A stretch of 64,000 nucleotides of DNA from Pedobacter aquae (GTDB lineage Bacteria > Bacteroidota > Bacteroidia > Sphingobacteriales > Sphingobacteriaceae): positions 2,976,001-3,040,000 of the forward strand of contig NZ_CP043329.1 in assembly GCF_008195825.1 (NCBI RefSeq), written 5' to 3'. Under the pieces are notes generated by a model, which was not told the origin of the DNA, made no database searches, and saw nothing but the letters and a program-made list of their open reading frames with translations. This document shows positions 48,230 through 54,595 of the stretch, in pieces. Position 1 is the stretch's first letter. The number at the start of each line of letters is the position of its first letter. Made by a program: the position numbers and the translations under genes.

Positions 48230-48501
48230 AAATGTAGATTTAAATTTCGCTACTCTTAACGCTTTTCGCAAGACCGCTTATGATGCTTTTACAAGTGTCA
48301 TCAATATGTTTTCACTATCATTAAATTAATAAAAATAAAATAAATATTAAAATAAAATCTAAAAAAGATAATTTTAAATCTTTAAAATAATTAATTTAAT
48401 CATAATTCAAAATTTATTTATTTTACTTAAATTAGAAATATTAACCACTCATCTTAACCAAAATTTAACATATAGCTTTATCAAAATAATTATATTGCAC
48501 T

Positions 48502-51555: not shown

Positions 51556-51674
51556 CAATTCTAAGTTTTTCTATAGAGAATGGACTGAACAATGAAGATG
51601 ATCAAATTCCTATGATATATAAACTTTCTGCTTTTAGCCTTTAGCTTTAAAGATTGATTAAGCTTTCCACCTTC

Positions 51675-51817
51675 TCCGTACCATGTTCGGGTCTTGTTCG
51701 GGAAATGGCCCTATTTTTCCGAAGGTGTCACGAAGAAGCTGCGAAGAAGCCTCGAAGGAAGTATGGATAAAACGTGGATAAAAGGTGGGGTATAGGTGGG
51801 CTATACGTGGACTTGTG
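51675..51817. repeat. 11-bp phased degenerate tandem array, about 13 units
   Basis: Reads as 13 consecutive 11-bp units, in three sub-families: TTCGGGNNNTG (51686 and 51697), NCGAAGRAGNN (51730, 51741, 51752, and a related unit at 51719), and NTGGRNTANNN (51763, 51774, 51785, 51796 and 51807). A shared C/T-G pair near positions 2-4 keeps phase across all three. No open frame is maintained. 11 bp is close to one DNA turn. Confidence 0.5.
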
Positions 51818-52071
51818 TTAAGAAAATTTCTTTTTGATATAGGATGTTATAGAAGAGGTTAACAAAGATATAAAAAATAGAAACTCATTAAAACTGTATC
51901 CTAATTTTTGACTTTCAATAAAAATTTACTTTATTAGAATTAAATTCTGCTTTATGAAAAATACCTATGGAATTGGATGATAATTTAGAAAATTTAATAA
52001 TAGCATGATACTTTGTGCAGATACGGCCATTTTATGTTGTATTTGTGCAAGTTTATGGGATATATATACTA

Positions 52072-52737
52072 GTTAGCGGTAACTGTAAACAACGACCTGA
52101 ATCAAAATTTAACAATAAACCAAAACAAAAAATGAAAAAACTTTTATTATTCGCTCTCCTAATCGCAATCTCTTTCCACTCTAGCGGACAAAGCGCCATC
52201 GAAAAAATAGAACTTAAAGCTAACGGATTTGTGGGAAATGACACCACTAAAAACTTTGTAGTGATAGAGCTTCCTGGGAAGAAAAAAAATGACTTATATA
52301 AAAGCACCCTTGTTTATTTAAGCTCTATGTATAAATATCCAGACAAAGTATTAACAATCGTTGACGGCGAATCAATAATTATCAACGGATTCACGGAATC
52401 TATAAAAGGAAGTCTGAGCTGGTACAAATATCTTTTCTATTATAGAATTAGCATTCAATTTAAAGACGGGAAAATAAAATTTGAACCATCAACGAGCAGT
52501 TTAACGGAAATATGGGCTGAAGGAAAAGAAAGAAAGTTCTACATATCCAGTAAAGACTCTCCTGACCCATATGATATGAATGTTGTTTACATAGTTTCAA
52601 AAGGCAATCAGATTCTAATAAATAAAGAGATAAAGTTAAGTATGGAAGAATGGGCAAATTCCTATTTAAAGCAATTGATTAAAGGAATATCTAAAAGCGA
52701 CTGGTAAATATGACTAAAAAGAACAGCAACCGCTAAC
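52072..52737. mobile_element. Cassette-like single-gene unit bounded by a 9-bp inverted repeat
   Basis: GTTAGCGGT (52072-52080) and ACCGCTAAC (52729-52737) are exact reverse complements and enclose one gene (52132-52707) with little spare sequence. Just beyond the right copy is a long imperfect hairpin (52741-52798). I recall similar GTTAGYGG...CCGCTAAC boundaries around orphan genes in Bacteroidota. No integrase or transposase is nearby. Confidence 0.4.
52132..52707 (+). CDS. Hypothetical secreted protein, 191 aa
   Basis: Start at ATG 52132, chosen because MKKLLLFALLIAISFHSSGQ is a clean signal peptide; the frame is open 39 codons upstream across the cassette boundary. The mature chain is beta-rich and charged (SSMYKYPDKVLTIVDGESII, WYKYLFYYRISIQFKDGKIK), with no known motif. 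I recall such proteins as a DUF4468-like type (phosphate-free beta domains with SMYKYP), but I cannot confirm. The gene is alone inside the inverted-repeat unit. Confidence 0.65.
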   Translation: MKKLLLFALLIAISFHSSGQSAIEKIELKANGFVGNDTTKNFVVIELPGKKKNDLYKSTLVYLSSMYKYPDKVLTIVDGESIIINGFTESIKGSLSWYKYLFYYRISIQFKDGKIKFEPSTSSLTEIWAEGKERKFYISSKDSPDPYDMNVVYIVSKGNQILINKEIKLSMEEWANSYLKQLIKGISKSDW

Positions 52738-52740
52738 AAC

Positions 52741-52798
52741 AGGTTTAATCATTTGCGGTGCGAAGTGCTATCCCTCAATGGCGCAAGAATGATGACCT
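52741..52798. repeat. Imperfect hairpin at the right edge of the cassette-like unit
   Basis: AGGT-ATCAT-TGCG (52741-52757) pairs with CGCA-ATGAT-ACCT (52782-52798) with small bulges; the loop is about 24 nt. Bulged arms of this sort are reminiscent of attC-type folded recombination sites, but no integron integrase is near and the core motifs of attC are not evident. Confidence 0.4.
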
Positions 52799-52980
52799 AG
52801 CCAAGCGGGCAAAGGCTTCTTATGCCTTATAAAGCAGAAACTTTGACTATACACTAAATTAAAGAAATTACAAGGCACAAGTATCCAATACACAGTCTTA
52901 GGCTAAATACCTTGCGCAATCTACGGGGGCGATATCGCCCTAATAACTAAACATCCTCTGAATACCGTCATAAGTATTTT
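52799..52980. other. Noncoding stretch before hipB
   Basis: No gene seen. It contains a perfect 14-bp palindrome GGGCGATATCGCCC at 52927-52940 and otherwise unremarkable AT-rich sequence. Confidence 0.45.
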
Positions 52981-53041: not shown

Positions 53042-53332
53042 ATGGAAAAGAGAAAACATGTTATTTTTCCAAAATATAATCAGCTATTGAGTCAAATGGG
53101 TGAAAATATGAAGTTAGCCAGAAAGCGTCGTAAGCTAACAACTACTCAAGTAGCTGAAAGAGCTAACATAGCTCGTTCAACTTTATATTTGATAGAGAAA
53201 GGTGATCCAAGCGTTGCCTTAGGGGCTTATTTTAATGTATTGCGTGTTTTGGGTTTACAGGAAGATATACTGAAGCTTGGAGCTGATGATATTTTTGGAA
53301 GAAAACTACAAGATCTTGAACTATTGAAATAA
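53042..53332 (+). CDS. hipB: HipB-like XRE-family antitoxin/regulator
   Basis: 96 residues. XRE helix-turn-helix: MGENMKLARKRRKLTTTQVA, ERANIARSTLYLIEKGDPSV, LGAYFNVLRVLGLQEDI. Binds DNA and, in hip systems, neutralises the HipA kinase. The hipA gene starts 7 bp downstream. Two palindromes sit directly upstream. Confidence 0.85.
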   Translation: MEKRKHVIFPKYNQLLSQMGENMKLARKRRKLTTTQVAERANIARSTLYLIEKGDPSVALGAYFNVLRVLGLQEDILKLGADDIFGRKLQDLELLK

Positions 53333-53339
53333 CAAGATA

Positions 53340-54595
53340 ATGGCACAGCAAAAATTTGATATATACGTGTTTGCTCATTGGAAAGGAATGACTGAACCTA
53401 AATTGATAGGGACATTATCGGCACATTACGCTAAAGGAAAAAAGGCATTTAGTTTTGAATATGATAATGTCTGGATAAACTCTGAACACCAACAATTAAT
53501 TGATCCTGATATACAGTTTTATTCAGGGACGCAATTTCCTAACCAAAAAGAAAATTTCGGACTTTTTCTAGATAGTATGCCTGATACTTGGGGGCGTACA
53601 TTGATGAAACGAAGGGCTGCACAACAAGCCAGAGAAAAAGGTGAAAGAGCACCAACCTTATATGAGATTGATTATTTACTCGGCGTTTATGATGAGAGTC
53701 GTATGGGTGCTTTACGATTCAAAATCGACTTAGAAGGTGATTTTTTAGATATCAATAAAGAAACACCTACACCACCTTGGTCATCTATTCGCCAATTACA
53801 GCATGCAGTAGACAGTATTGAAAATGATAACGAAAATAAGGATTTTAAAAAATGGTTGGCTATATTAATGGCTCCAGGTTCTTCGTTAGGCGGGGCTAGA
53901 CCTAAAGCAAATATTTTGGATGAAAATGGTTGTTTGTGGATTGCAAAATTTCCTTCCAGAAATGATACCCTTGATAAAGCCGCTTGGGAATTCTTAGCTT
54001 ATCAACTTGCTATACAAGCTGGTATTGATATGGCACAATGTAAATTAGAAAAATAGCAGGTAATTATCATACTTTTTTTACAAAACGTTTTGATAGGGAT
54101 TATTCAGAACGTATACATTTCGCATCTGCCATGACCATGACTGGAAATAATGAAGATACTATTAGAGACAAACCCGCAAGTTATCTAGATATTGCAGAAT
54201 TTATCCAAAACCATGGGGTTTATATTGAACAGAATCTCCATCAGCTTTGGCGAAGGATTGTTTTTAATATTGCCATATCTAATACAGATGATCATTTGCG
54301 TAACCACGGGTTTTTATTAACAGATAAGGGTTGGATACTTTCTCCGGCTTATGATATAAATCCGTCTATTGATAAGGATGGCTTGGCGCTTAATATTGAT
54401 ATGGATGATAACGCCTTGAGTATGGATTTAGCTAAAAATGTAGGTGATTTTTTTAGACTAGATAATAAGAAAATGGACGTGATCATAGATGAGGTATTAG
54501 CAAGTGTTAGTAATTGGAGGAAAATAGCATCAAATATTGGAATATCAAGGTCAGAACAAGAATTAATGCAAGCAGCATTTCTTTTTAATCATTAA
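53340..54595 (+). CDS. hipA: HipA-family Ser/Thr kinase toxin, interrupted by a one-base frameshift
   Basis: First half (53340-54056): N-terminal HipA domain and start of the kinase (GSSLGGARPKANILDENGCL, IAKFPSRND, WEFLAYQLAIQAGID). It ends in KLEK plus stop. Second half (from ATG 54131): RIVFNIAISNTDDHLRNHGF, the kinase active-site Asp/Asn region, and LSPAYDINPS. Adding one A to the five-A run 54050-54054 restores KLEKIAGNYHTFFTKRFDRDY between them, making a ~418-residue protein. HipA kinases phosphorylate glutamyl-tRNA synthetase and cause growth arrest. The break could be a sequencing error or a genuine inactivation; the toxin is the one broken gene here where true loss is plausible. Confidence 0.88.

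Follow-up and report, generated by a model that had tools for sequence, protein, structure and literature searches.

Several described systems of short repeated DNA can be set beside the array described here. ParR on parC and the Xis-type proteins are small DNA-binding proteins which polymerise as filaments on tandem sites of about 10–13 bp. Their context is plasmid partition or phage excision, and neither was seen here. REP/BIME elements with their RAYT (TnpA-REP) are, like the present arrays, dispersed intergenic palindromic repeats, and REP sequences are genome-specific, as are these arrays. In one published account, REPs measure 20–40 bp and carry the tags GTAG and CGTC (PMC3733652). In contrast, the arrays here extend over 60–150 bp, have an internal pitch of 11 bp and show no link to Y1 genes, and the core of the array under study, about 150 bp of 11-bp units, does not have the form of a 20–40 bp REP palindrome.

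A further close system is CarH. According to the relevant report, CarH tetramers set their MerR-type domains on tandem 11-bp direct repeats along one face of the DNA (PMC9304148). As described there, the CarH/CarA operators resemble our arrays in that each has several tandem units of 11 bp and tolerates degenerate ones. They lie close to a promoter, but comprise 3–5 repeats, direct only, of one motif (nnnnTnnACAn), are not dispersed, and are served by a regulator with a cobalamin domain (PMC9304148). The CarH-like features of the window (the whole 64-kb stretch of DNA that was analysed) are the 11-bp pitch and the direct units 9–13 of its array, together with relatives upstream of DUF6266-type genes. 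By eye, the motif as given in that source is not matched by the window units TTCG-N7 and GTGG-N7 (PMC9304148). Unlike in CarH, the unit sequence of the present arrays varies from one gene to the next, and for the regulator there is a candidate only. When set beside arrays which stand within 450 bp upstream of a DUF6266-type gene, the window copy has the units only, and its sister copy L014 has such a gene.

Architecture and dispersal of the window array

The non-coding stretch at 51675–51817 (143 bp) consists of 13 units of 11 bp, which bears out the division that an earlier note on this DNA had made by eye. The self-match at lag 11 is 0.568, against 0.257 ± 0.037 in dinucleotide-preserving shuffles (n = 2000), none of which was as high at this lag or reached 0.568 at any lag from 5 to 39; the autocorrelation peak by which the note had proposed to judge the period thus stands far above shuffled controls. 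Further peaks occur at lag 22 (0.446) and lag 33 (0.391). Among all 143-bp segments of the 64 kb, the lag-11 maximum (0.583) is located at the array, while the runner-up elsewhere is an A/T-rich segment at 48278 (0.492). Because the units diverge, Tandem Repeats Finder reports only three fragments of the array (scores 40–43).

Units 1–3 are TTCG-N7 and units 5–8 are of the reverse-complementary CGAA type, forming inverted arms about unit 4, and units 9–13 are direct GTGG-N7 units (Table 1). The three sub-families which had been described as changing along the array in constant phase are real, although a single motif, read in opposite orientations, accounts for two of them. A GCTTTAR-like pattern ahead of the window array was seen by eye, as was, in several copies, a reverse-strand TANNTTTG box within the flank on the right.

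Table 1. Positions of features in the window, and loci of related arrays and genes. Positions are those of the window unless a locus or genome is named.
Feature	Position or locus	Strand	Remarks
Left arm: CCTTC and TTCG-type units 1–3 (51675–51707)	51670..51707	+	93–98% identity per unit, 25 copies
Centre between the two arms (unit 4), GCCCTATTTTT	51708..51718	.	90% identity, 25 copies
Right arm: CGAA-type units 5–8	51719..51762	-	78–91% identity; most variable part among copies
Second array: GTGG-N7 direct units 9–13	51763..51817	+	Units 9–12, 95–98% identity, 25 copies
Right flank, ending in GGTTAACAAAGATATA	51818..51872	+	Partly conserved, 74% identity
Inverted repeat CCACGGAGTACGC...CTTTGTGGTTAAA	51466–51560		Also dispersed at other genomic sites; next to the same arrays in L009–L012
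DUF4468 gene, cassette-like	52126–52707		Flanked by two further dispersed repeats, 51905–52080 and 52715–52980
HipB/HipA-like toxin–antitoxin pair	53042–54595		HipA part in two frames, 53340–54056 and 54131–54595
Intact 274-codon frame, start TTG	G000:3249630–3250451 (L014:3631–4452)		Directly 3' of array copy G000_3249 (L014)
Y1 transposase (RAYT-like) gene bordered by CTAGGTATATCCTAG repeats	L089:1990–2300; L090		
TTCG hairpins and second, 10-bp array	L312, L314, L321, L322		Upstream of DUF6266, genus
TAACAGGGTRC units	L320, L326, L329, L330		Upstream of DUF6266, genus
CTTACGTTTCT units	L315		Upstream of DUF6266, genus
CTAACTATATG units	L351		Upstream of DUF6266, other family
GGATAGACAAA units	L362		Upstream of DUF6266, other family
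TTTGACTCTTC units	L364		Upstream of DUF6266, other family
GGGGACTT-type array	L381		Upstream of homologue of the L014 protein, p 0.01
TTGGACTT-type array	L378		Upstream of homologue of the L014 protein, p 0.01
GTGG units, by eye like the second array of the window	L377 (G008)		Upstream of homologue of the L014 protein, p 0.12, not significant
TTCG array within a predicted frame longer than 1100 bp	L208, L221, L230, L231, L241, L253, L257, L271, L275, L282		

The window array and its near-full copies, with their core of about 150 bp, are referred to here as family A. The genome of origin (G000) contains seven dispersed long copies including that of the window, to which the other six are 85–90% identical (query 51640–51830). 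Near-full copies number 27 in 4 of the 18 genomes searched in the genus, namely 7 in G000, 7 in G007, 8 in G003 and 5 in G004, so that the dispersed copies which the note had suggested seeking in related genomes do exist, in the genome of origin and in the genus; the remaining genomes of the genus hold no full copy and have either short pieces or none. Of the 27, 26 were compared (G003:C31 is without a locus) and 25 aligned (L037 was left out). Over the aligned copies the 13 units are 78–98% identical, against 50–56% in the far flanks, and units 9–12 (the GTGG part) and units 1–3 are best kept. Only two copies have a gap within units 1–12, L024 of a single base and L034 of precisely one unit (11 bp), and unit 13 contains a column varying by 1–3 bases among copies.

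The window copy lies behind a phosphate-transporter (pit) gene and a terminator-like hairpin. This site carries the array in four species, being filled also in G007, G003 and G004 (17 pit loci compared, of which L150 and L151 were unreadable downstream). The cassette-like gene unit that had been described as following the array is present, but it does not belong to the array, which occurs at other sites without the cassette. Several copies of the 3' repeat of this DUF4468 cassette were found behind the pit gene of G007. No named repeat family had been recognised before, and none was found in Rfam or in the literature searched either. The Rfam search gave nothing at gathering score, the one match being MIR1509 outside the array (22.6 bits against a cut-off of 87), and the literature search on 11-bp repeats in Bacteroidetes returned nothing relevant.

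The TTCG pattern across the phylum and its DUF6266 neighbours

The pattern TTCG-N7-TTCG ... CGAA-N7-CGAA is present in 32 of the 121 family genomes and in 12 of the 25 genera, with few matches to the reversed control. A stricter 3+3 form gave at least 120 stretches in named genomes. Among the 80 matches listed for this form in named records, 77 belong, by record title, to Bacteroidota and the other three to MAGs of Synergistaceae, Hormoscilla and Thermoanaerobaculia. The 3+2 form occurs in 6 of 296 phylum genomes and in 26 viral contigs, none of which has a DUF6266-type frame. Unit sequences differ between organisms and the 11-bp pitch is constant. In 117 of the 120 arrays listed, identical ones having been removed, the spacers of neighbouring units in one arm match at 4.15 of 7 positions, against 2.48 for units of different arrays.

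With respect to gene orientation, the 120 arrays listed comprise 49 tandem, 18 convergent and 14 divergent sites, 20 inside predicted frames of 150 codons or longer and 19 at an edge, and the background of long intergenic gaps comprises 94 tandem, 29 convergent and 49 divergent sites; divergent sites are at most slightly under-represented around the pattern arrays. Ten of these loci have the TTCG array within a predicted frame exceeding 1100 bp (Table 1), which may be a gene wrongly extended at its upstream end.

When the genes up to 1.5 kb away from the 120 arrays listed were clustered, one family stood out, DUF6266 (PF19781). A profile search found a full-length DUF6266 gene at 8 of these 120 loci, 120–694 bp from the array, which was upstream in all eight (sign test, 0.004). 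A ninth locus (L244) has a gene of a sister family with the array downstream, and a DUF6266-type gene is absent from 111 of the 120. At L265, a DUF6266 fragment was detected by clustering and was not recovered by the profiles. Outside the genus, 5 of the 49 arrays among the matches listed are located 216–292 bp from a DUF6266 gene, all of them upstream.

The association is also found when the search starts from the gene. A 10/11-bp periodicity (lag 10 or 11 against first-order Markov shuffles, p ≤ 0.05) is significant in the 450-bp upstream regions of 54 of 76 DUF6266 genes: 20 of 26 in the genus, where the matches come from 10 of 18 genomes, 16 of 28 in the phylum and 18 of 22 in a fresh set of further family loci, the genus loci being partly orthologous and the counts therefore not independent. 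No significant array was found upstream of 6, 12 and 4 genes of these respective sets; L328, apparently read in the wrong frame, is counted as a miss. As controls, the upstream regions of Y1 transposase loci (0 of 30) and the downstream flanks of DUF6266 genes (1 of 22) were scored in the same way.

At the level of genomes, DUF6266 is present in 28 of 32 array-bearing family genomes versus 32 of the 89 others (n = 121; p = 3e-7). The corresponding values are p = 5e-5 for family genomes of at least 3.3 Mb only and, for the 296 phylum genomes, 3 of 6 versus 18 of 290 (p = 0.005), kinship being ignored in all three comparisons.

The units differ from one DUF6266 gene to another, but the pitch does not (Table 1). 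A second array with a pitch of 10 bp (GYCAA-N5 or GGCAAA-N4) was also observed upstream of the DUF6266 start, often beside the 11-bp array, at L313, L321, L322, L357, L395 and L397. The structure model of a DUF6266 protein (L236; pLDDT 81) contains helices, a low-confidence region at residues 1–36, and a C-terminal fibronectin-III-like domain, with residues 110–213 matching fibronectin-III domains. As predicted, this combination of a helical part and a fibronectin-III-like domain says nothing of DNA binding, and no matches were obtained by sequence to solved structures or to PHROGs. At L314, L312 and L322 there is a conserved row of an HTH_17 gene, the array, DUF6266, a small membrane-protein-like frame and a CHAP hydrolase. 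Since the small frame downstream of L314 is membrane-protein-like by eye and is accompanied by a CHAP-domain hydrolase, the module may concern export or lysis, and we speculate that it is a unit of this kind.

The gene-bearing copy and the orphan status of the window array

Arrays of the kind of family A normally sit 100–450 bp upstream of DUF6266-type genes, i.e., of DUF6266 itself or of the sister family represented by the intact frame next to copy L014 (Table 1). The product of this frame has no match in Pfam or NCBIfam, and the equivalent of the right flank of the window array extends in this copy up to the gene. The sister family and DUF6266 share only the N-terminal motif SGKxGN..VG..R.KP, with 27 N-terminal columns in common (hhalign E value 4.5e-4, probability 33%), which weakly suggests a common origin of their N-termini. 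Homologues of the L014 protein occur in G008 and G016 and have upstream 11-bp arrays. A remnant of the L014 gene is found beside copy G003_24 (34-residue match, E value 2e-5), and a weak, doubtful match beside copy G004_33 (E value 0.08).

No DUF6266-type gene lies within about 1.5 kb at 25 of the 26 family-A loci, that of the window included, and no promoter could be convincingly placed for family A, again including the window copy. This copy is called an orphan because its units are present and a DUF6266-type gene is absent nearby. As the sister copy L014 is gene-bearing and the window copy is gene-less, the simplest reading of the window array is that of an orphaned DUF6266-type 5' element. 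It may have been left as a relic after loss of the gene, which we infer tentatively, or be a copy dispersed on its own.

A putative operator array and the competing explanations

On balance, we consider it somewhat probable that the window array belongs, as an orphan copy, to a dispersed 5' cis-regulatory element, the units of which are bound by winged-helix proteins that control the DUF6266 promoter. One 11-bp unit would correspond to one helical turn, so that the same half-site would come round to one side of the DNA at each of the 13 units. The array may be bound by a small winged-helix protein of HTH_17/MerR type, encoded just upstream in many of the hairpin-subtype DUF6266 loci, head-to-tail with one domain per unit; the bound row would control the promoter of the DUF6266 gene, and the inverted arms would let two protein rows meet at the centre. 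Fixed pitch, variable sequence, a single face and a location upstream of genes are the properties that a row of DNA-binding domains would call for. A gene for HTH_17 (PF12728) adjoins DUF6266 at 9 of 26 loci in the genus, 3 of 28 in the phylum and 0 of 30 control loci; in hairpin-subtype modules it is located just upstream, and it has weak similarity to MerR. It was found at 0 of 26 family-A loci. Most non-hairpin DUF6266 loci likewise lack it and would need a different protein in its place. By analogy with CarH, an operator array read one unit per turn by MerR/HTH_17-like proteins would be the best mechanism, to which the RNA-hairpin, RAYT-REP and minisatellite readings are weaker alternatives. 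The earlier note had offered protein binding or DNA bending; the former fits best, while bending is weakly supported, the curvature results being mixed.

An unlikely alternative, and the strongest of those considered, is a REP- or MITE-like mobile repeat, in which the array would be the recognised end of a small element copied by some enzyme and the DUF6266 genes would ride along. The seven similar copies with different flanks in one genome, the position after the pit gene in four species with no full copy elsewhere in the genus, and the array-specific unit types seen in the spacer comparison would all agree with this. However, none of the 30 Y1/RAYT loci is significantly periodic upstream, a RAYT/Y1 transposase is rejected as the partner of the array, and near Y1 genes just a short weak stretch was found, at the one orthologous pair L089/L090. 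Moreover, no clean empty site was found for the one copy tested (G000_3249), which differs from its relatives by about 2 kb, and an upstream-only position relative to DUF6266 would be odd for a mere transposon end. The CTAGGTATATCCTAG repeats and the Y1 gene which they border (Table 1) are likely a separate REP system of this genome.

A functionless degenerate minisatellite, grown by slippage and then copied, had also been suggested and is improbable. The loss of exactly one unit in L034 and the greater likeness of units to their neighbours than to those of other arrays are consistent with slippage, but the unit number is otherwise constant with strong conservation over 25 copies, the pitch is unchanged across the phylum despite different units, and the arrays lie upstream of one gene family; such a minisatellite fails to explain either the dispersed copies of constant unit number or this tie. 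We give still less weight to intrinsically curved DNA that would loop or activate a promoter without a specific protein. With assumed wedge parameters, the window array has a modelled curvature of 0.12, its shuffles one of 0.045 (p = 0.022), and three 10-bp arrays are also curved (0 of 500 shuffles each), whereas the direct 11-bp arrays L351, L320 and L315 show no such curvature (p = 0.95, 0.78 and 0.44). Least probable of all is a structured RNA or bidirectional terminator formed by the inverted arms, since, although the 25 copies share a predicted consensus fold in which 33 pairs form at −21.9 kcal/mol, both tests of RNA structure were negative (covariation term −0.13, with both sides changed in 1 of 33 pairs; arm pairing 3.98 of 7 in register against 3.84 off register in the 117 distinct arrays listed, Wilcoxon p = 0.28), the array is preceded by a terminator-like hairpin that belongs to the pit gene, and many DUF6266 arrays are direct and without arms.

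The operator-array reading can be extended, more tentatively and with doubt as to the whole, to the proposal that the operator arrays of Bacteroidota may form a class not described before, which combines helical phasing with specificity for single genes. Most DUF6266-type modules have units of their own sequence, while the pitch of 10–11 bp would be kept, implying a co-evolving row of DNA-reading protein, orphan arrays would be dispersed operators or relics, and the module of HTH_17, array, DUF6266, membrane protein and CHAP hydrolase in one subtype may be a unit for export or lysis that has so far escaped notice. The link to the arrays offers a handle on DUF6266, on which no paper was found in the literature searched. 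A cis-element that keeps its pitch while swapping its sequence from gene to gene would also provide a testable case of regulator–operator co-evolution, and of the birth and orphaning of arrays across a phylum.

Among the other features of this DNA, the HipA part of the toxin–antitoxin pair downstream of the cassette, being split over two frames (Table 1), is perhaps a broken gene. Intergenic stretches with a 7-bp period are common, 18 segments having been found at lag 7 in 464 kb (G000 samples L095–L114 and the window).
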